From: a virus
Virus record (IMG/VR): IMGVR_UViG_3300020392_000972
Coordinates: 1-21,304 of that record
Length of the DNA stretch: 21,304 nucleotides
Direction: 5' to 3' (one strand)
Under the pieces are notes generated by a model. It searched no databases and was not told the DNA's origin. It saw only the letters and a program-made list of their open reading frames with translations. Positions 258 to 21,304 of the stretch are shown in pieces (position 1 is the stretch's first letter; each line of letters opens with the position of its first letter). The translations under genes and the position numbers were made by a program.

Positions 258-851
258 TTAACTAGCTTCTGTTATAATTTCTCTCATTATGTGCTGTGCC
301 TTACACCATTCTTCACAAACTACTGATTGTTCTTGAATTTGTTTGTTCACAGATTCGTTCATAGGAACCATAAATGCTCCATGAGTAGATGGGTTAGAAA
401 CAAAATCCCAACCAATTAATTCAAAATCTTCACCTACTTGAACTTTACCACCAGTTAAAGGTTCTACCGAACCCATACCTCTTGATGATATACCTAATAG
501 AATACCTGCTTGTAGAAGTTCTTTTAAGATGTTACCGCTTGGGGTTGGTAATATCTCAACTGTTCCTACTAAATCATCACCATCCCAATGAATCTCTCTT
601 ACATTATGTGATACATTTTTTAGGTTGATTACAGAAGAATCAGGATGGTCTAACTCACCTAATGCTCTTCTTTCTTTAATTAGTTGTTCGTATTTCTTTG
701 CCTCTCTCATAAGGATAGGTTTGGGATATATTCTACCATTCTGATTTTCTGCACCAGCTCTTTGTAGAATACCCTTAACGATAGTTCTTCCACTATCATC
801 TTCGTTTACCTTACCTTCGAATAATCTTGTTTCTATTAGTAATGTGTTCAT
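258..851 (-). CDS. 21: prohead core protease, T4 gp21-like
   Basis: Serine protease that matures T4-type proheads by cutting scaffold, core and capsid proteins after [I/L]-x-E. The 197-aa product, close to T4 gp21 in size, shows GELDHP with candidate catalytic His69 and ISSRGMGS with candidate catalytic Ser122 or Ser123. These have the usual order and spacing for prohead proteases. A downstream WDFVSNPS segment also fits the family. The ATG at 851 is chosen over an in-frame TTG at 863 because it gives a TAATG overlap with the previous gene and has GGGGAG just upstream. The protein carries its own candidate sites, LFE before G at residues 10-13 and ITE before A at 193-196, consistent with the self-cleavage known for T4 gp21. 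It lies downstream of the portal, as in T4. Confidence 0.93.
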   Translation of the reverse strand: MNTLLIETRLFEGKVNEDDSGRTIVKGILQRAGAENQNGRIYPKPILMREAKKYEQLIKERRALGELDHPDSSVINLKNVSHNVREIHWDGDDLVGTVEILPTPSGNILKELLQAGILLGISSRGMGSVEPLTGGKVQVGEDFELIGWDFVSNPSTHGAFMVPMNESVNKQIQEQSVVCEEWCKAQHIMREIITEAS

Positions 852-1027
852 TATGCTCCCCAAGTTTTTCTTTTCTTAAATAAATCAAAAAAGATTGCAG
901 ATACCTCTTGTCTGATAATTTTTCTTATAATATCTTTATCAGATTCAGTAAGTTCCTCGTTTATTTTTCCTTTTTTAAAATTAACGATTTCCTCATTGAT
1001 TATATCATACAATTCTCTCTTTGTCAT
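851..1027 (-). CDS. small prohead/internal-protein candidate (58 aa)
   Basis: A 58-aa charged protein starts at the ATG at 1027, preceded by AGAGGA. A TTG at 1048 would also be in frame but lacks this ribosome site. It ends by sharing an A with the gp21 start (TAATG). The N-terminal half is an amphipathic helix-like stretch with INE at residues 10-12 and 22-24, followed by LTE before S at 26-29, a good match to the gp21 cleavage rule. Small proteins encoded just before T4 gp21 (gp67, gp68) are prohead core components processed by gp21. Position and motif suggest an analogous role, but I see no direct homology. Confidence 0.7.
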   Translation of the reverse strand: MTKRELYDIINEEIVNFKKGKINEELTESDKDIIRKIIRQEVSAIFFDLFKKRKTWGA

Positions 1028-1028
1028 T

Positions 1029-1271
1029 TTAATCCTCTTCAGAACCAAAAGTAGGGCCTACATGACCTCTACCAAATCTTTCATTTTTTTGTCCTCTTCC
1101 TTTCCAAGTTTTTTCAATCTTGTTAAAGAATGCCTTCTTTTCATCATCAGACATTTGTGGAATAGATTTACCAGCTTTTTCTAAAGCTTTTTTGAAAAAT
1201 TTTTGGTACTCAGATTCTTCTTTAAGAGTTTCTCTGACTATATTTTTAAGTTGTTCTCTTGTTATTTTCAT
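1029..1271 (-). CDS. small head-module protein with DDEKKAFF motif (80 aa)
   Basis: An 80-aa protein with ATGA overlap to the gene before it, one base before the next gene's start codon. The N-terminus (MKITREQLKNIVRETLKEE) looks like an amphipathic helix ending in LKE, a relaxed match to the gp21 site. The middle contains SDDEKKAFFNKIEKTW, a pattern I associate with small uncharacterised proteins of marine T4-like phages. The tail is Gly-rich and acidic. The design of a helical leader, a short folded core and a flexible tail fits a capsid-targeted internal or core protein. Function is unknown; the prohead link is inferred from neighbours. Confidence 0.7.
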   Translation of the reverse strand: MKITREQLKNIVRETLKEESEYQKFFKKALEKAGKSIPQMSDDEKKAFFNKIEKTWKGRGQKNERFGRGHVGPTFGSEED

Positions 1272-1741
1272 TTCTCAATCTCCTGTATAGTTCTTGCGAT
1301 TTTGATTAGTTTCTCCTTTATTGTATAAATATGTCTATTTGTTCTTTTCCAATACTTGTCTGAATCTAACTCATTAATCGTTTTTATCTTGTTATACCAA
1401 TTGAAAAACTTCTCAACTTCTCTTAATTGATACTTTAATTCTTTAAGACCCATTGCCATCTTTTTATGTGGATGCATGGATTCATCATTTTTTAATTCCA
1501 ACCATCTATTTACAGGTCTTTTTACTTTGGCTTCATTAATATTATCCATATCATTATCTACCACAGTATAACCCATAGATGTTGCAACCTTTTTCTTTCT
1601 TTTTTTGTCTTTTTTACTTGAAAATGCGTATGGGGTTTGATAACCAGCTACATTTGCGGTAGTAGTGGCTTCTTCTAATTCTTTCTCTACTTCATCAAGA
1701 ATTTCATCTAAGATTTCTTTAAGACTTTTTTCCATTGACAT
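1268..1741 (-). CDS. prohead core-like protein with acidic leader and two candidate gp21 sites (157 aa)
   Basis: The start is the ATG at 1741, preceded by AAGGAGATAAATA, a strong ribosome site. It overlaps the upstream gene by 23 bases. Residues 1-24 form a very acidic helix-like leader that ends in LEE before A (22-25). This is followed by TTANVAGYQTPYAF, a motif I recall from uncharacterised head-region proteins of marine myoviruses. A Lys-rich patch (residues 43-51) and a second site, INE before A (68-71), follow. The C-terminal half is a charged helical region. If cut at both sites it would yield an acidic propeptide, a basic peptide and a helical domain, reminiscent of T4 internal and core proteins. 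Function is inferred, not shown. Confidence 0.72.
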   Translation of the reverse strand: MSMEKSLKEILDEILDEVEKELEEATTTANVAGYQTPYAFSSKKDKKRKKKVATSMGYTVVDNDMDNINEAKVKRPVNRWLELKNDESMHPHKKMAMGLKELKYQLREVEKFFNWYNKIKTINELDSDKYWKRTNRHIYTIKEKLIKIARTIQEIEK

Positions 1742-4435: not shown

Positions 4436-4816
4436 TTACCATGCTCTACATGACCAGTATCTAGCTTTGTGTCTTGGACCTGGATTATCACAATTGTGTC
4501 TTGCTCTAAAAGATTTTCTCCTTGCAGGATTACTCTTTTTAATTTTCATTGTTTTCTCTCCACCTTTTCCTTTATGACCAAAGTTTACTTTTACTACATT
4601 ACCTTGGGGATTTTTAACATATACTTTGAATTTTTTAACATCACCTCTTGTTGGTTTACCAAGTTTTACTTTTCTACCTTGGTATTCGGCTTCGTTAATA
4701 TCAGGTTTATACGATTCCATGAATTCTACGAACTCTTTTACATCGTAATAGTTTTCTACAAAGTACTCTTCACAGTAATTTTTATTTTCGTTTATTAAGC
4801 TTTTCATTGAAATCAT
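4436..4816 (-). CDS. conserved head-module protein with C-terminal Cys/His cluster (126 aa)
   Basis: The start at 4816 has AGGAG eight bases upstream; an internal ATG at 4807 is an alternative. Residues 1-42 are an acidic, Tyr-rich leader ending in INE before A (40-43), a close match to the gp21 rule. From residue 43 the protein becomes strongly basic. Its last 30 residues carry ARHNCDNPGPRHKARYWSCR, with His107, Cys109, His116 and Cys123 spaced like a small metal site. I recall this tail from uncharacterised proteins near the structural genes of marine T4-like phages. Acidic propeptide plus basic mature domain is the layout of packaged or core proteins. It occupies the slot where T4 has tail sheath and tube genes. 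Function is not known. Confidence 0.75.
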   Translation of the reverse strand: MISMKSLINENKNYCEEYFVENYYDVKEFVEFMESYKPDINEAEYQGRKVKLGKPTRGDVKKFKVYVKNPQGNVVKVNFGHKGKGGEKTMKIKKSNPARRKSFRARHNCDNPGPRHKARYWSCRAW

Positions 4817-7834: not shown

Positions 7835-10800
7835 TTAGAAGAAAATACCAAGTATTTGATTTACGGATGCAAATGTACCAGTAAGTTTAAAAGTATTCCC
7901 TTTATATAAAAACACAATACCTTCATTTGGTACAATTTTTTTAGCCCCACCGATAGAATTTAACCTTCCAAGTTCTAATTTTAGTTTATCTATCTTTTTT
8001 GGGTCACCTGATTTCTTAACATCTTTGATTGTTTTATCAATTCGTTTCTTTATATCACGAACTGCCTTATCAGGATTTACTGTAAGTGCTGATGATGTGA
8101 ATTCTAAAACTTCTGCACCTAATCCTAAGAAGATTTTCTCAAATTTCATTAAATTATCTTTTGATATCTTCTTATGATTATCTTTATCTGTTTTCTTAGC
8201 CCAATCAAGAGTTTTTGAATCACTAATATTCTTATTATCTAATCTAAACTTCTTATCCATGAATGCCCATCTCTTAACCAATCCCATTTTTGTTTTATTA
8301 TCTAATGATGTTGGTGATTTTTTATCAACAAATTGTTCCCACCATGCTTGATGGTAATCTGCAACACCATCTGTATCTTTTAACTTGAACTCTTTTTGTA
8401 ATTTTGATATTTGTGATGAGTATTTTGCTTTTTTCTTTGATAAATCTTGTGATTTAGGTAATTTTACAATAGGTGGCCCTTGTATTGTATAGTTATCTTG
8501 TACATCTTTGTTAACTTGTTTAATCATACCAGCTAATACTCTTGCCGCTTCACCATTTTCACCTATGGCCTTACCATCCATATCATATTCCATAGTACCA
8601 TGGAACACAAGTAACGCTTGGCCGTAAGGTATAACATTAACTGATGTTGGGTATATTACTTCAAGGTTCATAAAACACGCACCTTGTTTGAATATCTTAT
8701 CTCTTTGTTTATTTGATAGAGCTGATATTGCATTTGAAAGGTCTTTCATAGCATAATTGTAAGCATCACTTAATCCACCTCTACCTTGGAACTTATCTGA
8801 TACCCCTTTGATATCTAAAGCGTTTTCACCTCTGTTCTTTAGGTGTCCTTTGTTCCTCGCTGCTACTAACCTACCATCTCTCCATGATATTGCAAGTGCT
8901 TGACCATCTGTTTTCTCTCTTGTGAACTCTAATGTACCTTCGAGTGCTCTATTTACGATATCTTTAAGTTGTCCAAAGGTTAAATTGATATCAGTATCGA
9001 ATGGGTGAGACATATGACCATATGCACCACCTTCTATAATTAGTTCTTCCTTGACTGGTTCATATCCTCTCTTTATTTTATCCTTTCGTTTATCTTGATG
9101 TCCACCTTCTTTACCACCATCATCAAAATCAACTGTTTCAGGTTCAGCAATCGAACCTCTTTTTGCATATGCAGATGTAGAATGATGTCTATTAAAATCT
9201 TTTTCTACTTCAGATTGTTTTGGGTCTAATTTTACTGGTTTTAATTTATCAGTTACTTTAGATTCTTTCATAAAGAGTTCTTTTTCTTTATTATTTATGT
9301 ACATTCCAATATCTGGCCCTTTAATATCGGATGGAACATCTTTTCCACCAACTGATAATTTAAATTTTACAAATTTATCAAGTTTTTTACCTATCATTTT
9401 ACCAAAATTAACAATATCTGAATCTGATACTGTTGTTTTATCATGTAACTTTTTAAATTGTACTATTTTATCTGGTGTAAATTGTTTTAATGATATTAAA
9501 AACACTATATTATCTCTATCTTTGTTTGAGTAAGATATTCTATTCAATGTTTTCGCTACTTTCAATGGGTCGTTATCCCTTAAAATATAAGAAATGAATG
9601 TAATATAGTTATTATCATGTGGATATGGTTTACTTACTTTTAAACTTGGTAATATTTGATTAGTAAATCCAACTTCATCCAATCTTTCCATGTAAACTTT
9701 AGTATTTTTGGATTGTTTTATTGCACTTACAAACTCTTTTGTAATTCTTTCAAATGGAAGTGATTTAATTGAGTTATCTTTCTTTAATGCATCTAAAGTT
9801 TCTTTATCTAATTTAGCTCCTAATCTTGTTTCGAACCTAACTGCTCTTAATTTTCTTAATGGGTCCTCATCAAATCTTTCTGATGGTTTACCAACTGTTT
9901 TAATTACACCCTTTTTTAAATCTTTTATTCCACCATGGAAATCAATTACTTCTTTCTTATCAATATCATAATATAAAGAATTACAAGTTAAATCTCTTCT
10001 TTTAGAATCAGTTGAAATATCACAATATACTACTTTATCTGGTCTCCTACCTTTACCAATATCTTGTCTGAATGTAGTTACTTCATGGCCATTGATTATA
10101 ATACTACCTAAATCAAGATTTGCATTTACATTTGTTGTTGAATGTTTAAATTTACCTTGTTTAGCAATCTTAATCATTTCTGCTGGAGTTGCATCTGTTG
10201 TTAAATCAAAATCTTTTGGTGTTTTACCAAGTATAGCATCTCTTACTGCTCCTCCAACTACATAAAGTTCTTTTTTATTCTTCTTAAATGCCTTTTGTAG
10301 TTTTTTAATATCAGCTGGTACAGATAAATTAAACTTTGTTCTTGTTGCTTTGTTTTCTCCTAATCTTTGTAATCCTGCTGGTGGTGGAGTTAAAGGATTG
10401 TATCCAAAACATCTTCTTCTAAAATCTTGTTCTGATTCGCCCTTCATTGGTTTATCACAACTCTGTTCATTTATTCTTTTATCTTTTCTCAACATCTGTA
10501 ATAGTTCCATTCCTTTTCCTTTGATATCTCTATCTACCATTCTTGATGTTGGGCCTTTGAATAATTTAATGTATAGTTTTTCTAAGTATTCACCTTTTTT
10601 GTTATCTGGTAATTTACTAAATAATCTGTTAATTTGTCCTCTTTTTTTATAAACATATTTTTTAAAATCATCATAGAAAAAAGAATTAATTTGTTCTTGG
10701 TAGATTGTATCATCAATTCTACCATATTCTCTCATTATAATACCTGCAACGGCATTTGCTTGATTCTCAATAGGTGAACCATCTGCTCCATCTCTCCTAA

Positions 10801-13375
10801 CATCTCCTAATAAACCAAGTTCATCTTGTTTTCTATGAACCAATTCATGTGCAATAGTTCTAAGGATATCAGCTGTCAATCTGTTTTCTGTTGCAACAAA
10901 TATTTCTTTTGTTTGTGTATCAAATCCACCTAAACTTTTATGAGTATCTGAATATTCTGTACCACTCATCAAAGTAATCTTTGGTTTATCTTGAAGTTTT
11001 AATCTTTCACAAGCATATTCAACAAAGTTGTTAATTGTTTTTATTTTTTTATTCAAATCTTCTTTAATAGGTTTATATTGATACTCTTTATCGGAATCAG
11101 CGTTTTTTCTATATTCTTTGTTTCTTTTCGCGAACCTTTTCATATCTTCCGGCCCAGCGTATCCAATCATCAGTTCATTTTGTTTAGTTTTTTTCTTCAT
11201 TTGGTTAATGAACTTTCTATAAACATCTGCAGCTGATTTTTTACCCATCACTCTTGCTCTTTGTTCCATAGCAATTGCTGCTTGAATCTTATGTGCATGG
11301 GATTTACCACTACCTTTAATTTTACTTACTGATTTTTGTGCATCTTTTACTGTTGCAAACTTTAATCCTTGTATTGTACCTTTTGGATTTTCATCTGTAT
11401 ATAAATCGGAATGTGAAGATGAACCTCTATGTTGTCCTTTTTTTCTTGGTACTCTTGCTGCTTCTTTACCATCAAACTTTTCTGCTTCTTTAGCTCTCAA
11501 TGCTGGTAAGAATTTAAATCTTGCTCTTTTAAGAACTCTTTTCTTTTTTCTTAATACATTTTTATGAACTATCTTTGCTTGTTGAATTGATAAATCAGTT
11601 CGTTTCATACCAGGAAATAAATCATTTAAGAATTCATTATAAACTTGTTTGTATGCTTGTTTGTATGCAATCTTTTTAAGTTTAGCAAGAGATTTTCTCC
11701 TTTTCATAGTTCTTGCTCTTCTTCTTGCTATTTGAGCTCGTTTACCAGCCATCGCTGCTTTTCTTCTAAGTAATGCTGCTGGTCTTAATCTACCTTTACT
11801 TCTTTCATCTAAATCTACAAATGCCGTTTCTTTAAGTGGTTTCATTCCACCTGCCTTTCTAACAACATTTAACTTCTTTATAATATCTCTTTGTTTTGGG
11901 GAACCAGGCATAGCTCTCATTGCCTTGTTTAGTAGTTTGAGATGTAATAGTTCATCAAACTTTTCATTTAATGATTCAGTTAATCCCATCTTTTCTCTCC
12001 ATGAATCAAACGCCCCATAATCATACTCTTGTTTTTGTGAATCGTATCCACAATTATGACATAAATACTTTTCATCATCATCGGATTCTAATTCCCATGA
12101 GTGATTACATTTTGGACAATCAATTGCCGTACCAGCGATTTCAACGATGTAACCCTCTTTCATTAGTCGAAAAGTTACAACTTTTCTTCCATTGATAGTT
12201 GGCATTCCATGTTCATCTTTACCGATAGATTTAACTTTTACCTTCTTGTTTTTAAATCTACCCATTAAAATAGTATCACCAACTTCTACTGGTAGATTGA
12301 TAGCTTCATTTAATGATGCTTCATACTCTTCTTGAGCATCTTTATCACCTTTTTGTGTATCAAGTGATATTTCTTTCTCATCTTTGTTAGTTTCTAATCC
12401 TTTGACTAATTCATATCCAATCATGGATGCTTTTCGAGTAGAGTGTTTAAACCAATCAGAATATGCCTTTGAAGAGTATATATCTACTTGGTTAGTTGCA
12501 GTGGTTGTACCTAAGACACCAGCTGGAAAGTAAGTAACTGCTTTTACTGGCCCATTAGGGTAAGTTGGATGGTCATAATAATCTTCAATCTCTTTGGATG
12601 TTATCATGTTAAGAACCTCATATCCAATCTTTGCTGCTCGTTTTACATTTATCCGAGAAAATACATCGTAGTTAGGGAAAAAGAAGTTTGGCCCATCATC
12701 CACTTGACCTGTACTCATCTTCGAACTCTCGTTGATGAGCCATTCTTCAATTCTCTCTTTAGAAATCTCGATTACTCCTTCATTAAGTTTATCAGTAATC
12801 ATCTTAAAAATCGTAGCATTAAACTTTCCATATGCACGAGATTTAAAGAAAGATTTCTTCTGGTCATCCGACCCTACTGATAACCCATTACGAGTTTCAG
12901 TACCACTTATACCACCTCCTTGTGATGGAGCAGCATAAACATAACCACCATCCTCATAACCAACCTCGGCCTTTCCTTTCCATGGTTTGAAATACTTTCC
13001 ACCCAATCTACTTGCATCTTTCTGACCTACTACGGTTATAAAGGCGGTTGTGTTTTTATCGTATTTTTTGAGGATTTCTTGTGGAGCATAATTGTTTTTT
13101 ACCTGTACTATTTTTGATTTAGGTATATTGAACATTGTAGTCATTATCTTCACCTTTTCTCTGAAGTTAAAAGGTGATTTGGGTTTTTCTACTTTGTTCG
13201 AAGTACTGATAAAAACATTATTCTTTCCGAACTTTTTGACAAGGTGTTGGTATGTGCCGAAGTGTCCTTTATGCATAGGTTGAAACCTACCACCATAAAC
13301 AACTACGACTTTCTTAATAGGACTTTCATCCTCCAAGAGCATTTGCTCTACAAGAAATTGTGAGAGTTTGTTCAT
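7835..13375 (-). CDS. giant multidomain head-associated polyprotein candidate (1846 aa)
   Basis: One open frame without a stop; residues are counted from the ATG at 13375 (a TTG at 13381 would add two). Visible modules: HxGH nucleotidylyltransferase (H35-H38 in GRFQPMHKGH, ISGTETR 156-162); phage block with GQVDDGP (about 217-350); SH3/KOW-like piece (363-410); zinc ribbon (C420, C423, C439, C442); Arg/Lys-rich block (517-645); block with SHSDLYTDENP (650-725); metallopeptidase (HELVH 843-847, E870); class II CCA/poly(A) polymerase-type domain (GGAVRD 1041-1046, D1055, D1057, RRD 1126-1128, EDPLR 1170-1174); ligase-type domain (K1488-T-D-G, E1572, E1818, K1830). Candidate gp21 sites follow E199, E216, E357, E467, E516, E772, E970 and E1448, all between modules. 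I infer capsid packaging and processing; the enzymatic families are seen, the biology is not. Confidence 0.9.
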   Translation of the reverse strand: MNKLSQFLVEQMLLEDESPIKKVVVVYGGRFQPMHKGHFGTYQHLVKKFGKNNVFISTSNKVEKPKSPFNFREKVKIMTTMFNIPKSKIVQVKNNYAPQEILKKYDKNTTAFITVVGQKDASRLGGKYFKPWKGKAEVGYEDGGYVYAAPSQGGGISGTETRNGLSVGSDDQKKSFFKSRAYGKFNATIFKMITDKLNEGVIEISKERIEEWLINESSKMSTGQVDDGPNFFFPNYDVFSRINVKRAAKIGYEVLNMITSKEIEDYYDHPTYPNGPVKAVTYFPAGVLGTTTATNQVDIYSSKAYSDWFKHSTRKASMIGYELVKGLETNKDEKEISLDTQKGDKDAQEEYEASLNEAINLPVEVGDTILMGRFKNKKVKVKSIGKDEHGMPTINGRKVVTFRLMKEGYIVEIAGTAIDCPKCNHSWELESDDDEKYLCHNCGYDSQKQEYDYGAFDSWREKMGLTESLNEKFDELLHLKLLNKAMRAMPGSPKQRDIIKKLNVVRKAGGMKPLKETAFVDLDERSKGRLRPAALLRRKAAMAGKRAQIARRRARTMKRRKSLAKLKKIAYKQAYKQVYNEFLNDLFPGMKRTDLSIQQAKIVHKNVLRKKKRVLKRARFKFLPALRAKEAEKFDGKEAARVPRKKGQHRGSSSHSDLYTDENPKGTIQGLKFATVKDAQKSVSKIKGSGKSHAHKIQAAIAMEQRARVMGKKSAADVYRKFINQMKKKTKQNELMIGYAGPEDMKRFAKRNKEYRKNADSDKEYQYKPIKEDLNKKIKTINNFVEYACERLKLQDKPKITLMSGTEYSDTHKSLGGFDTQTKEIFVATENRLTADILRTIAHELVHRKQDELGLLGDVRRDGADGSPIENQANAVAGIIMREYGRIDDTIYQEQINSFFYDDFKKYVYKKRGQINRLFSKLPDNKKGEYLEKLYIKLFKGPTSRMVDRDIKGKGMELLQMLRKDKRINEQSCDKPMKGESEQDFRRRCFGYNPLTPPPAGLQRLGENKATRTKFNLSVPADIKKLQKAFKKNKKELYVVGGAVRDAILGKTPKDFDLTTDATPAEMIKIAKQGKFKHSTTNVNANLDLGSIIINGHEVTTFRQDIGKGRRPDKVVYCDISTDSKRRDLTCNSLYYDIDKKEVIDFHGGIKDLKKGVIKTVGKPSERFDEDPLRKLRAVRFETRLGAKLDKETLDALKKDNSIKSLPFERITKEFVSAIKQSKNTKVYMERLDEVGFTNQILPSLKVSKPYPHDNNYITFISYILRDNDPLKVAKTLNRISYSNKDRDNIVFLISLKQFTPDKIVQFKKLHDKTTVSDSDIVNFGKMIGKKLDKFVKFKLSVGGKDVPSDIKGPDIGMYINNKEKELFMKESKVTDKLKPVKLDPKQSEVEKDFNRHHSTSAYAKRGSIAEPETVDFDDGGKEGGHQDKRKDKIKRGYEPVKEELIIEGGAYGHMSHPFDTDINLTFGQLKDIVNRALEGTLEFTREKTDGQALAISWRDGRLVAARNKGHLKNRGENALDIKGVSDKFQGRGGLSDAYNYAMKDLSNAISALSNKQRDKIFKQGACFMNLEVIYPTSVNVIPYGQALLVFHGTMEYDMDGKAIGENGEAARVLAGMIKQVNKDVQDNYTIQGPPIVKLPKSQDLSKKKAKYSSQISKLQKEFKLKDTDGVADYHQAWWEQFVDKKSPTSLDNKTKMGLVKRWAFMDKKFRLDNKNISDSKTLDWAKKTDKDNHKKISKDNLMKFEKIFLGLGAEVLEFTSSALTVNPDKAVRDIKKRIDKTIKDVKKSGDPKKIDKLKLELGRLNSIGGAKKIVPNEGIVFLYKGNTFKLTGTFASVNQILGIFF
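11644..11667. repeat. tandem 12-bp duplication inside the giant gene
   Basis: CTTGTTTGTATG occurs twice in direct tandem. It encodes a repeated Y-K-Q tripeptide in the basic block of the giant protein and keeps the frame, so it looks like a recent in-frame slippage duplication. Confidence 0.6.
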
Positions 13376-13551: not shown

Positions 13552-14100
13552 TTAGTTACTATAATATAATTCAGGATATTCTACTAATATATGTATTCCA
13601 CCTTTTGATAAAGCATTTTTATATGCAGGTAAAATTTTATCATGAGTATCTAATTTCACGATTGTACTATTTGTTACTATATCTTTAAAAGCCTCTGTAT
13701 AATCAGCTTTGTGTTGATGACCTGGGTCTAATGGTTTATCAGAACCTTTACCTACTCTTACAATCACATTTGGTTTCCACTCACCATCAGACATTGCCTC
13801 TAATTTATCTAAGTGATTTACCAGTTGATTTACAGCAAGTATTAAAAAATCCCATCTTGGGTAAAATGTTACAACTTTATGTCCTGTCATAGCGAGCCCC
13901 ATTGTCATACCCATCTGTGTTTCTTCCATTACTGGTGTTTCTATCATTCTATCTTTTGGTAATCCTTCAATTGTTTTACTCATTGGATTACCATACCATA
14001 CGATTTGTTGTCCTATGAAAATTGTTTTTGGGTCATCCATTACAAGTTTCATTGCTTCAGTTAAAGCATCTAAGTAAGGTGTGTATTCTGGTTGTGCCAT
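13552..14100 (-). CDS. ThDP-dependent enzyme, E1-beta-like (pyrimidine-binding) subunit
   Basis: The 182-aa product matches the pyrimidine-binding domain of 2-oxoacid dehydrogenase E1-beta and transketolase-like enzymes. The segment IETPVMEE (53-60) contains the candidate Glu59 that would activate thiamine diphosphate. GMTMGLAMTGHKVV, FYPRWDFLILAVNQLVNHL and a later VIVRVGKGS block follow in family order. E1-beta proteins are usually about 325 aa; here the C-terminal transketolase domain is absent. The partner E1-alpha-like subunit is encoded three genes upstream (17268-17909). No E2 acyltransferase is present, so a stand-alone carbon-carbon bond enzyme acting on a sugar is more likely than a dehydrogenase complex. 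The start forms a TAATG overlap with the previous gene. Confidence 0.85.
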   Translation of the reverse strand: MAQPEYTPYLDALTEAMKLVMDDPKTIFIGQQIVWYGNPMSKTIEGLPKDRMIETPVMEETQMGMTMGLAMTGHKVVTFYPRWDFLILAVNQLVNHLDKLEAMSDGEWKPNVIVRVGKGSDKPLDPGHQHKADYTEAFKDIVTNSTIVKLDTHDKILPAYKNALSKGGIHILVEYPELYYSN

Positions 14101-15395
14101 TATATTAAATTTATTTTAGTTCTTGAAAGCCAATACTCTCTACTAATTGTTAATCCATTTTTACTAAATTCTTTTTTTGTACATCCATAATCTTCCCAAA
14201 ATTTATTTTTAATAAATGTTTTAAAATTTTCTTTTATTTTAAGAAAATTACAATTTTGTGCAGCTTCGTTCCAAAGTAACATATACAAAATTACATTTGG
14301 ATGTTCATTATATCCTGGTAATAATTCTTTTACATCAATAATTTTTGATTCAAAATGCTCAGGTGTTAAATTTACAAATCCTACTTCTTTAAAATTATCA
14401 ATGATAAATTCATCAATACCTCCTTTTCTATATCTTTCACTTTCGTAAAAGTAATGTCTACCACAAGAATTAATTTGTTTAAATAGATATTCTAAGTTTG
14501 GAAATAATTCAACTATATTTTTTGTTTGTAAATTATTTGGTCTGTTTTCACCAAATTGATTTGTTTCTTTTAATCGAGTTTGATTATCTACAAAATAATA
14601 TTCGTGTGGATGTTCTTGAAATTCTGAAAATAACCAGTTTTCTTGAAACGATTGCATATCAATTGAGTTCCATTCAATTTGTTTACTATTCAAAAATGAT
14701 TGTGTTTTAATAATATTATCTAAATGATTTTTGATTTTCATATCAGGTGATAATTTATTTTCTATTGATAAAACAGTATCAAAATATAATTCATAATCCA
14801 AACTAATATCTGAAAAATAATCTTTAAATGAATGTGCTGGATTTACATAAAAGTTTTTATCAATATGTCCAACATTTCCAATTTTAAAAGTGTTACCTAT
14901 ATTGATGTTATCTAATAAACTTTTAAGTTCCTTTGGTAATTTTTTATACTCATTTGATTTTACATCATCAATACTTATAAAATTATCTTTTGTTTTGTAA
15001 ATAAATGGCATATCACCAGGTGATGGATATGAAGTTGGTTCTAAAACAGTTTCATCTATTTTCATGTATTTCATGATAGGAAAACAAACTCTATGCCATT
15101 GTGACCATTCTATAAAACAATATATGTTTTTAGATTCAACTCCTAAATTTAATAACTGATTTACTACATATATAATTGAATCAGATTGCCAATCACTACC
15201 CATACTTCCGCAGTGAACTGTAATTCCAATAATGTTATCAACATCTCCTTCAACATGACACTCACTATATTCTTTTTTAAGTCTTTTGCTGTAATCTTCA
15301 GGAATATGTTTAAAAGGTGTTAAAACTGATTCTAACATTCTACCATATGAACATCCTGTATTTATGATAAATTTATATTTTGATAGTTCTTTCAT
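14100..15395 (-). CDS. SGNH-hydrolase-like protein (431 aa)
   Basis: The N-terminus, FIINTGCSYGR, places a Ser (residue 16) after a beta-strand in the way of SGNH/GDSL-type nucleophile blocks. A later GSMGSDWQSDSIIY and the strand YCFIEWSQWHR fit the oxyanion and core-strand positions seen in phage SGNH-like proteins. I could not find a clear C-terminal DxxH pair, so catalysis is uncertain. The rest is AT-rich, Asn/Lys/Phe-rich sequence without recognised motifs. It is joined to the neighbouring SDR gene by an ATGA overlap and to the E1-beta-like gene by TAATG. In a glycan cassette it might add or remove acyl groups on a sugar. A related SGNH gene sits two genes upstream. Confidence 0.7.
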   Translation of the reverse strand: MKELSKYKFIINTGCSYGRMLESVLTPFKHIPEDYSKRLKKEYSECHVEGDVDNIIGITVHCGSMGSDWQSDSIIYVVNQLLNLGVESKNIYCFIEWSQWHRVCFPIMKYMKIDETVLEPTSYPSPGDMPFIYKTKDNFISIDDVKSNEYKKLPKELKSLLDNINIGNTFKIGNVGHIDKNFYVNPAHSFKDYFSDISLDYELYFDTVLSIENKLSPDMKIKNHLDNIIKTQSFLNSKQIEWNSIDMQSFQENWLFSEFQEHPHEYYFVDNQTRLKETNQFGENRPNNLQTKNIVELFPNLEYLFKQINSCGRHYFYESERYRKGGIDEFIIDNFKEVGFVNLTPEHFESKIIDVKELLPGYNEHPNVILYMLLWNEAAQNCNFLKIKENFKTFIKNKFWEDYGCTKKEFSKNGLTISREYWLSRTKINLI

Positions 15396-16342
15396 ATTGT
15401 TTTTCTATGATGATTATAAGTTCTTCTTATACCCTCTTCAAAGCCTGTTTGAGGGAGTAATCCATACTTTTTTTGTATATCTGTATTCATTCTTCTTCTT
15501 GGTTCACCATTTGGTTTTGAAGTATCCCAAGATACTTTTACATCTTTATCACTTACTTTTACTATTGTATCAACCATTCTTTTAATTGATATTTCTTCTC
15601 CACTTCCCAAGTTCGTAACTATGTGTAATTTATTTTCATAACATTTAATACTTGCAGATGCAACATCTCCAGCATAAATAAAATCTCTTGTTGGTGAACC
15701 ATCACCCCATGCTTCTATCTTACCTTTACTTGGACTAGCCATAGAAACTTTTCTTATGTTTGAAGCCACAGCCATTGCTGATTTACCAAAGTTATCGTAT
15801 TCACCAAATATATTTGCAGGTCTTACTATTGTCCAATTATTCCACTTGTATTGTACTTTGTGAGCTTCTAAATATAATTCTGGTACTCTTTTACTCCAAG
15901 ATGGATACCAATCATGTTGTGATGGTAAAGTTTTCCAAACTGTATCTTCTACAAATTCAGGTGCTGATTCGTAAACACCAACTGATGACATGAATACTAA
16001 CCAAACATTATTCTTGTAACAATTATCTATTATATTAAAATTACCACTTATTGATGGTTTTAAAAAATCAACAGGATTTTCTTTTGCTGTTTTTGGTGTA
16101 CCTTTAATACCGAATGAATTAATACATGCATCAAACTTATGTATTTTAAATAATATTTCAACATCCTCTGAATCTTGTAAATCACAATGAACAAAATTAA
16201 AATTATCATAATTTACATCATTGAAATATTTCATATTTTTATTAATATCAGCACCTACAACAAAATAATTTTTTTTAAGTAATTGTGCTACAATGTGTGT
16301 ACCTACTAGTCCATTTGAACCTGTTACTAAAACCTTTTTCAT
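15392..16342 (-). CDS. extended SDR, NAD-dependent sugar epimerase/dehydratase family
   Basis: The 316-aa product has the Rossmann signature TGSNGLVG (7-14), a strand ending MSSVGVYE (118-125) with the candidate active-site Ser, the substrate-domain segment IVRPANIFGEYDN and a family-typical GDGSPTRDFIYAGDVA. These place it with NDP-sugar epimerases/reductases such as GDP-fucose synthase-like enzymes. The expected Tyr-x3-Lys pair is odd: Tyr146 and Lys151 are five apart, as YPSWSK, so the Tyr is shifted by one from the usual place. Either a local bulge restores it or the enzyme is altered. Length is normal. It is coupled by TAATG to the SGNH gene before it and by ATGA to the one after it. The substrate is probably a nucleotide sugar. 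Confidence 0.88.
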   Translation of the reverse strand: MKKVLVTGSNGLVGTHIVAQLLKKNYFVVGADINKNMKYFNDVNYDNFNFVHCDLQDSEDVEILFKIHKFDACINSFGIKGTPKTAKENPVDFLKPSISGNFNIIDNCYKNNVWLVFMSSVGVYESAPEFVEDTVWKTLPSQHDWYPSWSKRVPELYLEAHKVQYKWNNWTIVRPANIFGEYDNFGKSAMAVASNIRKVSMASPSKGKIEAWGDGSPTRDFIYAGDVASASIKCYENKLHIVTNLGSGEEISIKRMVDTIVKVSDKDVKVSWDTSKPNGEPRRRMNTDIQKKYGLLPQTGFEEGIRRTYNHHRKTI

Positions 16343-17268
16343 TAGATTAATTTATTTTTATTAGATATTGCTTGTATAACATTTTCTGCTATTATTTTAT
16401 GACACAATTTTGATGGATGTGTATCCATGCCTGGTTTCCTATTAGGATTATTATAATTTTCTGTATCGATGTACATTCTTTCTCCTTCTTTATCTTCATT
16501 CACTTGAAGATATTCGATACAATCATAAACTTTATCTTTGTAAGTAAGTTTAATAAATCTTTCATTTAGAAAACTATCTTTTTTTATGTAATCAAGATAT
16601 TCATCCGTCCATGAAAGTAAATAAACTTTTTTACCTAAATCATGATACTTTTTTAAAATCTTTGAAAGTTCGTTTGTCCAACGCTGGATATGTTCGTGTT
16701 TAAAATCATCCAAAGTTTTTCCATTATCAATTAAATAATCAAGAAAAATTTCAAGTGGTAAATTTTCTTCTTCAATTATTAAATGACCTAATGCAGTAAA
16801 TAATTCTTCACCGAATCCTGCTATTCTATTAACATGGTCTAAGTTTCTTAAGTTTGGTGTACCCTTAACCATATACCTTTGCCCTTTGTAATCAAAATAA
16901 AATGGACTTCTATAAGGTTGTGTTGTTTGTACAATTATGTATTCTACCTCATCCAAGTCAAAGTTTTCCTTTAGCATTCCTTTATGATGTGGTGGTTCCC
17001 CAAACACCATTTCGATAAATCTAACTGTTTCTTCATCACACCCACCATTATATCTTTTCACGATAGGTTCAGTTCCTAAATAATCTGATACCATTTGTGG
17101 CCATCCGAGTGTTTTTCTCAACTTAAAAGCTTGTTCAGGTATTCTTTTATGTTCTATTGTATATTCTTGTGCAGATGGAACATGAACATCATCTCCTTCA
17201 TAGTACATCCAAAGTCCTTGTCCCCATGTAAAAGAACATCCTGCATATATTGTTCCTTTTCTACTCAT
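16342..17268 (-). CDS. SGNH/GDSL-family hydrolase-like protein (308 aa)
   Basis: The N-terminal block YAGCSFTWGQGL holds the candidate nucleophile Ser12. A central YNGGCDEETVRF gives an Asn/Gly-type oxyanion position, and the C-terminal GMDTHPSKLCH gives a D-x-H pair in the place expected for the catalytic Asp and His. All four SGNH hallmarks are therefore plausible, and such proteins are frequent in marine phages. The ATG at 17268 is chosen over one at 17283 because it overlaps the previous stop as TAATG. Family members act as esterases or acyltransferases; in this cassette a carbohydrate acyl group is a reasonable but unproven substrate. Confidence 0.8.
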   Translation of the reverse strand: MSRKGTIYAGCSFTWGQGLWMYYEGDDVHVPSAQEYTIEHKRIPEQAFKLRKTLGWPQMVSDYLGTEPIVKRYNGGCDEETVRFIEMVFGEPPHHKGMLKENFDLDEVEYIIVQTTQPYRSPFYFDYKGQRYMVKGTPNLRNLDHVNRIAGFGEELFTALGHLIIEEENLPLEIFLDYLIDNGKTLDDFKHEHIQRWTNELSKILKKYHDLGKKVYLLSWTDEYLDYIKKDSFLNERFIKLTYKDKVYDCIEYLQVNEDKEGERMYIDTENYNNPNRKPGMDTHPSKLCHKIIAENVIQAISNKNKLI

Positions 17269-17909
17269 TAAAATACAACCCATTTACCAGTACCATAATG
17301 TGGGTACTTTGATTTATATTGATAATAAATTACATCACCTGGTAATTCTCTTTGGATACCATTCCATGTATCTAAGGTTGGTGTATTTGTTGATACACCA
17401 TTATCCTCTACAACAAAATAGAGTGGTAGTTCATAGTTTCTTGCATATTTATGAACCTCATAAAAGATACCACTTTCAAACGCCATATCTCCAACAAATG
17501 CCCATACTTTATCATCACCACCATTATACTTAATTGATTTAGCCACTCCTAATGCAATCGGTAAAATACCTGTTACAATAGCAGAAGAATAAAATTTTGA
17601 TTCTTTATCAACTATTGTAATTGATTTACCATCAAGTATTTTTTGTTTAAGTTTTTGTGGTTCTATACCATGAAGTAATGCATGGTAGTGAGACCTCCAA
17701 GTTGAGAACACCCAATCAGTTGGTGATATTTTTTTAAATATTTTTATAAGTTGGCTTTCATTTCCATTGGATAAGTGTATTGGGCCTCTTATCTCTCCGC
17801 CCTCCCAATGTTTGATGATATCATCTTCAAAGTCAATTAAATCTTGTTCAGACCAATTACCTTCTAACCATCTATCTTCATGGTGATTTAAGTTTTTTAT
17901 AGTGTTCAT
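17268..17909 (-). CDS. ThDP-dependent enzyme, E1-alpha-like (diphosphate-binding) subunit
   Basis: The 213-aa product carries the thiamine diphosphate/Mg motif GDM...N: GD at 140-141 and Asn170, about 29 residues apart, within DMAFESGIFYEVHKYARN and VVEDNG. Upstream, WRSHYHALLHG (71-81) matches the conserved His/Arg region of E1-alpha, and IVTGILPIALGVA the following helix. It is closer to E1-alpha of 2-oxoacid/acetoin dehydrogenases than to transketolase. It is shorter than the usual 320-400 aa, lacking much of the C-terminus. Its partner is the E1-beta-like protein at 13552-14100. Start and stop overlap neighbours (ATGA and TAATG). The pair probably makes a two-carbon or acyl transfer during modified-sugar synthesis; the substrate is unknown. 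Confidence 0.85.
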   Translation of the reverse strand: MNTIKNLNHHEDRWLEGNWSEQDLIDFEDDIIKHWEGGEIRGPIHLSNGNESQLIKIFKKISPTDWVFSTWRSHYHALLHGIEPQKLKQKILDGKSITIVDKESKFYSSAIVTGILPIALGVAKSIKYNGGDDKVWAFVGDMAFESGIFYEVHKYARNYELPLYFVVEDNGVSTNTPTLDTWNGIQRELPGDVIYYQYKSKYPHYGTGKWVVF

Positions 17910-19033
17910 AACCTTTTTAAATAATTTTTATCATTATTAAGATTTACTAAATCCTTTACTATTTTTTGGTTTTTTAGAAATCTTGATTCAAAATTTATGT
18001 AATTATTTTTGAAAAAATTAATATTATTTTTAATTCTAATTAATTCATCTATAATCATAAATATTCTTTTTTTATTATTCTTCTCATTATCATACGAATG
18101 GTCAATTATATCATCAAAGAAATCAAACCCATAATCTCTCAAATATTTACAATGTTGATATGGTGCAACAAATATGGGGTACTGATAATAGTAAAATGGT
18201 TTTAATGATTTTTCTGTAATATGTATTGTGTTATCATCAAAATCTGTTTCATTAACAATATTAACAAAACTTTGTTCAAAAGTTTTTTTCTCAATATAAT
18301 TTGAATCAATACAATCTAAGTTTTTCTCAAAATAACTTCTTTTATTTTTTAAAGATTTTATGTACTTTAACGATTCAGAATATTTTTCTAATTCTTTTTT
18401 ATTTAAAAAATCTTTAATTTCAAAATCTTTATTATAATCTATTACAGAAAAATCTGTATCATCTAAAAAACTATTATGATGTAATAAAGAAACAATTAAA
18501 TATCTATGAATCCACATTTTATTATTATGGCACATAAATGAAAATTTTTTATCTTTAATAAAATCTACTTCATTAGCTTGTAGAATTTTAGAATGTACTT
18601 GATGTAAAAAAATAGGTTTATGATAATTTATTTTTGATTTGTATTTTTTCTTATATAAATCTATTTTCCAATTGTTTACTAAAAAGTAAATATTTTTTTC
18701 TTCTATATTTTTATTTTTAAGATAATCAATAAATTGTTTAAAAGCATCTTCAGATATAGTTTCGTTTACATTAAAAATTATAACTTTTAATCCATTATTA
18801 ATATAATTAATCAATTCATCTGAAAAAACTTCTTTGTTATGTATCCATGGATTTGATAAATTACATATCGGATAGATTGTATTATTATCCACTTCATTTG
18901 TAAATTGAATTTCTAAAGCTAATTTTTCAAAGATTTCAAATAAAATATTATTTCTTTGTTCTAAAGTATTATTTTTACTATAATATAAATTTAAATCAAA
19001 ATTAGAAAGTATTTTGTTTAGAAATTTAAACAT
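17906..19033 (-). CDS. putative glycosyltransferase, GT10/fucosyltransferase-like C-terminus (375 aa)
   Basis: The ATG at 19033 follows AAAAAGAGATAAAT and is preferred to an upstream in-frame GTG at 19066. The N-terminal half is AT-rich and poorly conserved, with FSFMCHNNKMWIHR near the middle. The C-terminal half has HITEKSLKPFYYYQYPIFVA followed by YLRDYGFDFFDDIIDHSYDN. This pattern of a T-E-K donor-binding loop, a P-I/V-x strand and a DYGFDxF element is what GT10-type alpha-fucosyltransferase C-terminal domains look like in phage and bacterial glycan clusters. The family call is by motif resemblance only. It overlaps the RmlC-like gene by eight bases. The donor could be a GDP-sugar made by the epimerases in this cassette. 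Confidence 0.65.
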   Translation of the reverse strand: MFKFLNKILSNFDLNLYYSKNNTLEQRNNILFEIFEKLALEIQFTNEVDNNTIYPICNLSNPWIHNKEVFSDELINYINNGLKVIIFNVNETISEDAFKQFIDYLKNKNIEEKNIYFLVNNWKIDLYKKKYKSKINYHKPIFLHQVHSKILQANEVDFIKDKKFSFMCHNNKMWIHRYLIVSLLHHNSFLDDTDFSVIDYNKDFEIKDFLNKKELEKYSESLKYIKSLKNKRSYFEKNLDCIDSNYIEKKTFEQSFVNIVNETDFDDNTIHITEKSLKPFYYYQYPIFVAPYQHCKYLRDYGFDFFDDIIDHSYDNEKNNKKRIFMIIDELIRIKNNINFFKNNYINFESRFLKNQKIVKDLVNLNNDKNYLKRL

Positions 19034-19604
19034 ATTTATCTCTTTTTGATAATATAGGTTTATCACATGGCCAATCTATTTTGAATTTTTTGTCATTCCA
19101 TTTAATAGTACCTTGTTTATCATCATCATAGTATTCACCTTGATATGCAAGTTTATATTGAAAAATAGAATCATCTTCCATAACATAGTGTCCATTTGCA
19201 AACATTGGTGGTACTAAAACTTGTGTACCTGTTTCAGGTCCTATTATAAAAGATTCCCACTTACCGTAATTTGGTTGTTTGGGTCTTAAATCTAAAACTA
19301 CAAGATATAGTTTACCATGAGGACATGAAATTAGTTTCCATGTTTTATCATCATAGTGTAATCCACGAAGAACATTGATTTTTGATTTTGAATATCTATC
19401 ATGGTTAAATTTTAATCCTTTATTTCTTTCACCAGCTGGTAACAGCTTATCATAATAATCCGAATGATATGTTGTTGTAATCATCCCTCTATACTCATGA
19501 TATATGGATGGTTGTACTACTTTTACTTGTGGTAAAACTGAACCATTATAGAAATGGAAATCATCCCAACTTCTTTCTTTGTAAAATATACTTCTGTTTT
19601 TCAT
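19026..19604 (-). CDS. dTDP-4-dehydrorhamnose 3,5-epimerase family (RmlC-like)
   Basis: The 192-aa product is a cupin of the RmlC family: VLRGLHYD (78-85) with the candidate base His83, KLYLVVLDLRP, a VPPMFANGHYVMEDDSIFQY strand pair with candidate Tyr150, and IKWND near 167-171. Length is typical (about 180-190). RmlC epimerises C3 and C5 of 4-keto-6-deoxy sugars. No RmlA, RmlB or RmlD is in the window, so the substrate may be host-supplied or a different 4-keto sugar. The VPPMFANG segment departs from the common P-x-G-F-A-H-G-F form in that the first Phe/His pair is altered, so specificity may differ. It has an ATGA overlap with the kinase gene. Confidence 0.88.
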   Translation of the reverse strand: MKNRSIFYKERSWDDFHFYNGSVLPQVKVVQPSIYHEYRGMITTTYHSDYYDKLLPAGERNKGLKFNHDRYSKSKINVLRGLHYDDKTWKLISCPHGKLYLVVLDLRPKQPNYGKWESFIIGPETGTQVLVPPMFANGHYVMEDDSIFQYKLAYQGEYYDDDKQGTIKWNDKKFKIDWPCDKPILSKRDKYV

Positions 19605-20356
19605 AACTTATTTTTATTAATAATACTCACTCCTCGTTTTTGTACTACCTGAGTTGAACATTTATTTGCAAATTCAATCGAATTTTCTATTGATTTTGTT
19701 TCAACATATTTATAAACTAAACCAGATAAAAAGGTATCTCCTGCACCTGCTACATCCTTAATTGTAACTTCTTTAGTAGGATAATTACTTCCATTGTAAT
19801 CACAACCAAATCTACCCCTTGTTACAATAAGCTTTTCATTTATCCAATCATTATTTTCTATAAAAGATTTTGATTCCTTATATTCTAAATAATTAATTTT
19901 AATAAAATCTATTGTAGAAACCCAATCTCCTAATTTTTTCTTAGTGTCTAAAAATACTGTACATGATGTATTTTCTGATATTTTTTTTATAATTTCTTTT
20001 GTTAGGAATCCTTTGTTATAATCAGCGATAATAATACTATCGTAATCTTCTAATTCAACATCATCAAATGATTCATCTGTTATGTTATCTACAAAATCAT
20101 TCTCATCAATCCTTAACAAAATGTAATTGTAAGAATCATCTACATATCTAATTTTTTTTATTTTTTTTGTGTTTGTAACTATATCAACTTGAACTCCTAA
20201 TGCTTCAATATTATTTTTAACATTAGATGCCATACCCTCATTTTCTATCTGATGAGTTGGTTCAATTACAGGTATAGGAGCTTCGGGTGATAATCTTTTT
20301 GCATCACCATAAATAAAAATATCTTTACAACTTTCTCCTATTACTAAAACCTTCAT
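19601..20356 (-). CDS. PfkB-family sugar kinase, HldE/RfaE N-domain-like
   Basis: The 251-aa product has the heptose-kinase-like N-terminal blocks GESCKDIFIYGDAKRLSPEAPIP in order (about 8-30), then EGMASNVKNNIEALG in place of the usual GGAANVA block. Near the C-terminus, DVAGAGDTFLSG carries the PfkB signature with candidate catalytic base Asp207. Family members phosphorylate D-glycero-D-manno-heptose 7-phosphate at C1, leading to ADP-heptose for LPS. The protein is shorter than the roughly 315-aa HldE kinase domain and lacks the cytidylyltransferase-fold second domain. The ATG at 20356 is chosen over upstream starts because it forms TAATG with the previous stop. The heptose substrate is inferred from family resemblance. 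Confidence 0.87.
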   Translation of the reverse strand: MKVLVIGESCKDIFIYGDAKRLSPEAPIPVIEPTHQIENEGMASNVKNNIEALGVQVDIVTNTKKIKKIRYVDDSYNYILLRIDENDFVDNITDESFDDVELEDYDSIIIADYNKGFLTKEIIKKISENTSCTVFLDTKKKLGDWVSTIDFIKINYLEYKESKSFIENNDWINEKLIVTRGRFGCDYNGSNYPTKEVTIKDVAGAGDTFLSGLVYKYVETKSIENSIEFANKCSTQVVQKRGVSIINKNKL

Positions 20357-20757
20357 TACCAGCTTATTTCCCAATCTTTAAACTCAGAGGCTAAACAATC
20401 TATTTTATAATCTTTTCTACCTCCTAATTTTTCTTGTATTTTATTTTTTGCAGTATTTCTTATACCATTAACACTATGAGTTAATTTTAGTTGATTCTCA
20501 GTATCAACACCATTTCTAGCATTATCCTCATTGTTCCAAATATGTACATTCATTTGTGATAAAACAACAATAGCTCTAATTACTTCACCATCAATAATAT
20601 TATCTTTATCTAAAAGAATTTGATTAATATCATGAACAATATCTTTTATTTCTTGTTGATATTCTTTTTTATGATTTGGAATTTTGATTTCTTTTATCTG
20701 AAGTATTGATAATCTATCAATTAGTTCGCCGAGTGTTGGTAAATATTTTCTAACCAT
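20356..20757 (-). CDS. small LPS-cluster-type protein of unknown function (133 aa)
   Basis: The protein begins LPTLGELIDRLSILQIKE, has the central segment VVLSQMNVHIWNNEDNAR and is helical and charged throughout. The GELIDRLSI helix recalls uncharacterised proteins found in heptose/LPS gene clusters (DUF4254- or DUF6165-like), but I cannot confirm the family from memory. There is no membrane segment and no recognisable active site. It starts inside the end of the GDP-mannose epimerase-like gene (37-base overlap) and is coupled to the kinase by TAATG, so it belongs to the sugar cassette. Confidence 0.7.
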   Translation of the reverse strand: MVRKYLPTLGELIDRLSILQIKEIKIPNHKKEYQQEIKDIVHDINQILLDKDNIIDGEVIRAIVVLSQMNVHIWNNEDNARNGVDTENQLKLTHSVNGIRNTAKNKIQEKLGGRKDYKIDCLASEFKDWEISW

Positions 20758-21304
20758 TTATATAACTTTTTGATTCCTGTTTCTAATTTTTCTGTTGGTT
20801 CCCATCCTAATAATTTTTTTATCAGTTTGTTATCAGAGTTTCTTCCTCTAACACCAAGTGGGCCATCTATATTTTGTATTTTAATGTTCTTACCACTTAT
20901 ATATATTATCATTTTAGTAAAGTCATTTATAGAAATCATTTCTTCTGAACCTATATTAATAGGTGTTTTTACTTCTGATTTCATTAATCTTCTCAGCCCT
21001 TCTACACATTCATCTACATATAAAAATGAACGAGTTTGTTTTCCATCTCCCCATACCTCAATGGTATCGCCCTCATTTGCTTGAACAACTTTTCTACAAA
21101 TAGCTGCTGGTGCTTTTTCTTTGCCACCATCGTATGTTCCCATAGGTCCAAAGATATTATGTAATCTTGCAATCTTTGTATCAATATGATAATTTTTTCT
21201 AAATGATAAATATAATCTTTCACCATATAATTTTTCCCATCCATATTCTGAATCGGGTTCAGCTGGATAAACTGAATCCTCAACACAACTTGGATTGTTC
21301 TCAT
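20721..21304 (-). CDS. GDP-mannose 3,5-epimerase-like SDR (C-terminal 193 codons; continues past the window)
   Basis: The frame is open to the window edge, with codons starting at 21302, and no start is visible. The visible part begins ENNPSCVEDSVYPAEPDSEYGWEKLYGE in reduced form: the YGWEK element gives the catalytic Tyr and Lys of extended SDRs. HNIFGPMGTYDGGKEKAPA, EVWGDGKQTRSFLYVDECVEG, NIGSEEMISIND and GPLGVRGRNSDN follow. This series is very characteristic of GDP-mannose 3,5-epimerase, which makes GDP-L-galactose or GDP-L-gulose. An internal ATG at 21143 would drop the catalytic Tyr/Lys and is not the start. GDP-sugar production would suit the GT10-like candidate downstream. Substrate assignment is from family resemblance. 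Confidence 0.9.
   Translation of the reverse strand, partial: ENNPSCVEDSVYPAEPDSEYGWEKLYGERLYLSFRKNYHIDTKIARLHNIFGPMGTYDGGKEKAPAAICRKVVQANEGDTIEVWGDGKQTRSFLYVDECVEGLRRLMKSEVKTPINIGSEEMISINDFTKMIIYISGKNIKIQNIDGPLGVRGRNSDNKLIKKLLGWEPTEKLETGIKKLYKWLENIYQHSAN

Follow-up and report, generated by a model that had tools for sequence, protein, structure and literature searches.

A modular enzyme polyprotein with prohead protease motifs at its module junctions is a probable head cargo of a T4-related large phage

The stretch of viral DNA analysed here (the window; 21,304 nucleotides, positions 1 to 21,304 of IMG/VR record IMGVR_UViG_3300020392_000972) contains on its minus strand a gene (P0001) at 7835..13375, with its ATG at 13375 and its stop at 7835-7837. 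The 1846-codon gene announced by the original prediction, which had been made from the sequence alone, was thus confirmed as an open reading frame encoding 1846 amino acids, and orthologues of it are present in viral contigs. The gp21 homologue announced in the same window was also recovered, at 258..863 (minus strand), as a match to Peptidase_S77 (PF03420, E 8.7e-27, above the curated cut-off); this T4 gp21-type prohead protease is the proposed cutter of the polyprotein. The portal and terminase genes lie between the prohead protease gene and the polyprotein gene. The cultured Microcystis phage Mel-JY01 shows this gene order too, with the polyprotein followed by the terminase, a portal-sized gene and the prohead protease, and the portal lies downstream of the polyprotein in all 40 loci with enough sequence. 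Positions 13552-21304 of the window correspond to a sugar-nucleotide cluster including two nucleotide-sugar epimerases and a dTDP-4-dehydrorhamnose 3,5-epimerase, with transketolase/E1-like halves that are split between 13552-14100 and 17268-17909, each having a match to phrog_34187.

The polyprotein was divided into the following parts, all encoded on the minus strand (slashes mark putative cleavage points). A capsid-targeting-like N-terminus, MNKLSQFLVE/ (residues 1-10; 13346..13375), ends in LVE and is followed by a second site, LLE, at E15. The nucleotidylyltransferase module (residues 16-199; 12779..13330; PF01467) carries GRFQPMHKGH and SGTETR and ends in LNE199/G. Then come the 'VDDGP' block, a putative module without assigned function (residues 217-357; 12305..12727; ending LNE357/A), a KOW-like module (residues 358-412; 12140..12304; ending IVE412/I), at the equivalent place of which stand-alone genes begin with MAITIDVN, and a zinc ribbon (residues 413-467; 11975..12139; ending LTE467/S). 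A small helical module (residues 468-524; 11804..11974) containing LNE471, LKE516 and LDE524 precedes a basic, helical, DNA-binding-like module (residues 525-638; 11462..11803). The basic 'HSDLYTDENPKG' module with its linker (residues 639-772; 11060..11461), which occurs also in Kyanoviridae phages, has E/A at its start without [IL]xE, and its linker ends in IKE772/D. It is followed by a metallopeptidase-like (AHELVH) part with a small module (residues 773-970; 10466..11059; ending INE970/Q), for which the match to Peptidase_M78 is weak (E 0.019), and by a small Cys-containing segment (residues 971-1007; 10355..10465; ending LGE1007/N). The CCA-adding/poly(A) polymerase-type tRNA nucleotidyltransferase module (residues 1008-1376; 9248..10354) ends in the relaxed motif FMKE and has a strict in-fold motif at E1234. 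A small acidic/basic segment (residues 1377-1448; 9032..9247), containing IAE1411 and ending IIE1448/G, leads to the C-terminal ligase-type module (residues 1449-1846; 7838..9031), with KTDG, EGIVF and FKLTG and a strict in-fold motif at E1606.

Two of these enzymes could be predicted with confidence from their domain matches. The nucleotidylyltransferase matches PF01467, a CTP_transf_like family with HxGH (NMNAT/cytidylyltransferase-like), over residues 26-128 (E 2.2e-7, above cut-off), and the CCA-type enzyme matches PF01743 (PolyA_pol head) over residues 1037-1158 (E 2.8e-29, above cut-off). PHROGs agree with Pfam, the CCA module being phrog_2244 (E 3.9e-51). The K-x-DG, E, EGxVF and late Lys positions of the ligase-type module are invariant or nearly so among 38 sequences, 5 of which are matched by PF09414 (best E 0.003). 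After the close relatives, the top of the lists from the PDB and viral fold searches repeatedly contains RNA ligases, without significance (PDB E of at least 0.56). The sole significant match of the ligase profile to solved-structure sequences, ribosomal eS6, was judged compositional and was discarded. The motifs and these weak matches tentatively suggest an RNA-ligase-type enzyme. The metallopeptidase module had no match in solved structures. An HD domain (PF01966) is found in the polyproteins of some relatives. Phages are considered to pack NAD/ADP-ribose enzymes in their heads (PMC9503650), and the module set, judged by domain types only, would fit an early kit restoring NAD and repairing tRNA ends.

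The start of the polyprotein reads MNKLSQFLVE/QMLLE/D, with F7, L8 and E10 in the register of the T4 capsid-targeting sequence and L at position 4. This pair of N-terminal sites, E10 and E15, was missing from the motif list of the original prediction. A 10-residue capsid-targeting sequence, MKTYQEFIAE, is common to the T4 internal proteins II and III and agrees with MNKLSQFLVE at positions 7, 8 and 10; in the annotation of the T4 record, the IPII precursor spans residues -10 to 90. Mutation data in T4 indicate that positions 4 and 7 mainly govern targeting and positions 8 and 10 processing (PMC9026906). The pattern M.....[FYHW][LI].E was present at the start of 47 of 89 distinct related polyproteins versus 1 of 494 other long ORFs. 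In most of the polyproteins that do not fit this pattern, the site is shifted downstream by a few residues (as in MNELSQYLVNQILLE/), and [IL]xE lies inside residues 6-22 in 100 of 106 related polyproteins, as compared with 14% of internal windows. In a 276-kb relative, tag-like starts were found in 11 of about 20 genes of the head cluster at 98-118 kb versus 12 of 299 genes elsewhere (odds ratio about 29), the latter rate being equal to the internal background. The polyprotein of phage Mel-JY01 (WWT39297.1) starts with MGKLINILLSE and has GGLGGHMNHPFDD after IIAE238. By its residues, the window polyprotein appears to start with a short targeting sequence of T4 type that terminates in [IL]xE.

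The T4 prohead protease cuts according to the rule [IL]xE (PMC9026906). The prohead protease of the window begins with MNTLLIE/TRLFE/G, an [IL]xE-bearing N-terminus of its own; an LIE-9 motif is present near the start of T4 gp21, where its role is unsettled according to the same review (PMC9026906). The gp23-type capsid protein (PF07068) of three relatives contains six [IL]xE motifs in its first ~65 residues. The last of them, LLDE/ATxTG, stands directly before the conserved core, at a position which we take to correspond to the T4 gp23 cleavage point. By analogy, the protease of this lineage plausibly uses the T4 rule. The targeting N-terminus, the LLDE/A site of the capsid protein and the conserved head-gene context thus provide evidence for packaging beyond that of the original prediction.

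The polyprotein contains 18 strict [IL]xE motifs (E10, E15, E199, E211, E216, E357, E412, E467, E471, E516, E524, E772, E970, E1007, E1234, E1411, E1448 and E1606). The eight sites listed initially were all found at the residues given for them, but the total is 18, and three junctions had been overlooked, namely E412 between KOW and zinc ribbon, E524 where the basic module begins, and E1007, at which the CCA module truly starts. This number is not above chance, since shuffled sequences gave 14.6±3.4, and the portal, for which two strict matches had been reported, has ten. It follows that only placement carries the argument, as had been proposed. Only 2 of the 18 motifs (E1234 and E1606) lie inside module bodies, versus 72% expected from the share of residues in these bodies (P~1e-7). 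The control motifs did not avoid the bodies, with 81% of [IL]xD, 74% of [IL]xK, 70% of [IL]x[QN] and 76% of [AGST]xE inside them. The claimed avoidance of the folds is therefore real, even though the statement that they hold only relaxed matches was wrong, since E1234 (CCA region) and E1606 (ligase-type region) are both strict matches. As the body limits were drawn by the analyst from domain matches and conservation, partly after the fact, we relied more on comparative tests than on this placement test. The predicted model of residues 1-1010 was poor (pLDDT 51), and the use of AlphaFold confidence as a two-state test across junctions was dropped for this reason; in the 418-1010 part of the model, which is the better one, low-confidence stretches overlap most motifs, an observation to which little weight was given.

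Module borders were also defined blind to the motifs, as the positions at which BLAST matches among non-redundant mosaic proteins begin (left edges), and a window of -1 to +8 around each edge was searched; a -10 to +4 window gave a blunted signal because BLAST matches begin on the motif itself. Of the edges backed by 10 or more HSPs, which are not independent of one another, 60% carried [IL]xE versus 8.7% of positions drawn at random from these proteins (ratio 6.9), while [IL]xD, [IL]xK, [IL]xQ, [IL]xS and [IL]xN were not enriched at these edges (ratios 0.5-1.1). Any xxE was found at 89% of them versus 46% of random positions, and over all 525 edges [IL]xE was present at 33% versus 9%. A strict [IL]xE is absent from 40% of the well-supported breakpoints and, when edges are grouped according to the family downstream, most members have [IL]xE in only 9 of 31 families, many of which are small or noisy. 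Some domain edges will inevitably lie near a three-residue motif and the number of motifs equals expectation, but their placement, the null controls and the enrichment at breakpoints already refute chance for placement, so that a fortuitous origin can practically be discounted.

About 240-315 related loci were compared, the scans of viral contigs having yielded several hundred relatives. Their modules are shuffled into 27 architectures in which the junction motif stays while the upstream neighbour differs, and across unrelated contexts the motif keeps a largely constant distance to the conserved core of its module. Orthologues keep E10 in 12 of 13 sequences and E15, E199, E357 and E412 in 12-13 of 13 (E199 being invariant), while the neighbouring residues vary. 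E216 (INE, start of the 'VDDGP' block) is kept in only 7 of 13 orthologues, and E216, E471, E516, E970 and E1007 are not widely conserved. Among 119 distinct instances of the ligase-type module, 112 directly follow [IL]xE (INE, ITE, LTE, IIE, LLQE, IME etc.), and the motif precedes it in 27 of 30 upstream contexts lacking mutual similarity. A Glu is found at the border of the KOW module in 64 of 65 instances, 49 of which are strict [IL]xE, and the CCA module follows [IL]xE/(A/S/N) in 6 of 6 unrelated contexts. In locus L014, the CCA module sits before the basic module of the 525-638 type; both keep their motifs, the basic one again after DLDE. In loci L002 and L013, a whole extra module is inserted exactly at E412. 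The TDENPKG module follows E/A without I/L, showing that not every junction is strict. The original prediction had proposed to check whether junction motifs are conserved in homologues, and this comparison bore it out: [IL]xE is kept at module edges while modules shuffle and flanks are replaced. The idea that the polyprotein is packaged and cut survives the homologue comparison by which it could have been refuted, and the mechanism appears well supported by these alignments.

In seven loci (L017, L018, L020, L021, L023, L024 and L186), a Met (KELLLM or similar) replaces the Glu directly before GGAYGH, and some of them have the motif 5-18 residues upstream of GGAYGH. In L013, residues about 430-770 form an inserted module of ~340 residues (GGGKVYGTEHGE...) flanked by IFE/ and LRE/; Pfam gave no match for the part examined.

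The same modules also exist as separate small genes with MxKLxxLLxE starts of their own. Stand-alone KOW genes occur in a tagged form (MIKLLNLITE/KIVLDVKVGD, MIKLKDLLLE/KIVLNVNVGD) and in an untagged form (MAITIDVNVGD) in which the start Met replaces the junction Glu; because of the latter, this Glu is dispensable for the domain. These genes bear on the view that the polyprotein is a cytoplasmic multi-enzyme, neither packaged nor cut, in which [IL]xE is simply the conserved N-terminal edge of each domain. The hydrophobic residues before GGAYGHM do persist even where E is M, and the ligase fold may include part of the motif. However, the same motif is found at the starts of several unrelated module types, the free-standing KOW genes lack the Glu, and the ligase model opens with a disordered stretch of 13 residues that contains the junction (pLDDT 25, first block). 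A cytoplasmic role is also at odds with the T4-type targeting start and the head-gene context, and we regard this view as very unlikely. In loci L027, L031 and L034, modules are present as runs of short separate genes, each starting with MxKLxxLLxE, and the polyprotein seems exchangeable with such a multi-gene form.

Genes of a single module that bear an [IL]xE-ending tag, such as those above, would leave internal [IL]xE motifs as scars upon head-to-tail fusion. The polyprotein could then be packaged with only its N-terminal tag removed, the chain acting as one multifunctional protein, and the junctions that are not strict [IL]xE would agree with this. Such scars should decay, yet I/L and E persist while P2 and the flanks vary (IIE, ITE, LTE, LLQE, INE/GGAYGHM). 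Full tag remnants are, moreover, mostly absent upstream of the internal sites, and the avoidance of module bodies by [IL]xE makes sense if cuts there are harmful, which also counts against fusion scars. Packaging of a chain that loses only its tag consequently seems unlikely.

Another candidate for the cutting activity is the embedded metallopeptidase-like module itself, since the AHELVH module is present in the window polyprotein (as a weak match) and self-processing by embedded metallopeptidases has been proposed for polyvalent proteins (PMC5512222) such as P1 DdrB. Among 90 complete polyproteins with a ligase module, however, 82 lack the metallopeptidase and yet keep the junction motifs, so that it is not a general cutter. 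The junction motif, furthermore, equals the gp21 rule and the site in the capsid protein itself. An embedded peptidase as the means of release, proposed for a subset of polyvalent proteins, is thus not supported here, given its absence from these 82 proteins and the weak match in the window, and self-cutting is highly improbable.

Taken together, these results make it very probable that the polyprotein is a head cargo of a T4-related large phage that is tagged, packed whole, cut by the phage's own prohead protease and delivered. The N-terminal capsid-targeting sequence would draw the whole chain into the prohead core, where the S77 prohead protease would remove the tag and cut after [IL]xE in the linkers. 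The head would then hold, all as free proteins, an NMN adenylyltransferase-like nucleotidylyltransferase, the CCA-adding and ligase-type enzymes and the metallopeptidase-like module, together with the KOW domain, the zinc ribbon and the basic DNA-binding modules, and the freed modules would enter the host with the DNA.

The proposed system resembles the T4 internal proteins IPI-III and Alt, which a capsid-targeting sequence directs into the head and gp21 processes, in its 10-residue tag (aromatic residue at 7, I/L at 8, E at 10), its S77 protease, the [IL]xE motif and the head-gene context. T4 cargoes are, however, single proteins losing a short terminal propeptide, whereas here the motifs also separate many enzyme modules. 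The polyprotein has at least two biochemically disparate domains in one chain in a virion-gene context, which places it among the polyvalent proteins of phages and conjugative elements (Iyer et al. 2017, PMC5512222), whose disparate enzyme domains are likewise encoded with head genes and predicted to be injected, and which have been compared with RNA-virus polyproteins in the same work. Polyvalent proteins differ by their release, which has been ascribed to embedded peptidases, and by another module set, while here the sites match a trans-acting prohead protease and the tag is of T4 type. In the head proteins of phiKZ and SPN3US (PMC10052503), one substrate also undergoes several cuts after xxE by a gp21-related protease, and cargo is ejected, but these multiple sites dismantle N-terminal propeptides (for gp245 also a C-terminal one) without separating enzymes, and the motif is A-x-E. 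The P1 Dar system (DarA, DarB, DdrB; PMC9024508), which serves anti-defence, likewise uses large proteins packed through an N-terminal signal, some of them proteolytically processed; they are encoded by separate genes with other folds, and no module-junction motif has been reported. Retroviral Gag-Pol and RNA-virus polyproteins parallel the proposal as packaged precursors cut into enzymes at maturation by their own protease, although there is no relation by descent and the phage, a DNA virus, encodes its protease in a separate gene.

The arrangement of the polyprotein recurs in two other genes of the window. The core-like gene at 1268..1741 (minus strand) has an [IL]xE-rich head and INE/AKVKRPVNRWLELK, and in relatives (L102, L064/L005, L105, L085) it grows from ~150 to 887 amino acids by insertion before INE/AKVKRPVNRWLELK. 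From this comparison, it is a second putative taker of cargo modules before its conserved INE/AKVKRPVNRWLELK end. The small head-cluster gene at 4436..4816 (minus strand) encodes MISMKSLINE/..DINE/AEYQGRKVKLGKP, with the same motif arrangement, and its module shows insertion behaviour in relatives like that of the 1268-1741 gene. Uncultured phages of 460-480 kb carry versions of this arrangement (MKFLKSYEEFLNE/NLILE/GGSYGHLNHPFED), and Kyanoviridae isolates have the TDENPKG module beside tagged genes. In the cultured cyanophages S-SM2 (L240) and P-TIM68 (L241), the TDENPKG basic module is annotated as a 'hypothetical protein' beside terminase or capsid genes, and the gene neighbouring it in S-SM2 starts with MKTLKQFLKE/T.

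Capsid-targeting tags with gp21 processing are already known for small single cargo proteins, as are multi-enzyme injected proteins. No case of a prohead protease processing an enzyme polyprotein of a phage was found in the literature, the coverage of which was incomplete, so that novelty is unproven. The comparisons made here support well the view that the polyprotein represents a variant form of the tag-and-cut cargo system of T4 and would work like a Gag-Pol polyprotein. On the broader proposal our opinion is evenly balanced: a widespread family of large phages may possess a Gag-Pol-like system, consisting of the polyprotein and at least one core-like gene with enzyme modules freely inserted between prohead protease sites, through which the virion would deliver a pre-cut, rapidly evolvable NAD-, tRNA- and DNA-acting kit that would counter the defences of the host as soon as infection begins. 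If true, genes annotated as 'cytidylyltransferase-like protein' or 'hypothetical protein' would turn from an annotation puzzle into predictions testable in a cultured phage, and cargo could be read in hundreds of uncultured phage genomes by a simple rule, the tag indicating what is packed and the motif where the products start. It would also explain how cargo modules can be swapped without redesign of packaging.
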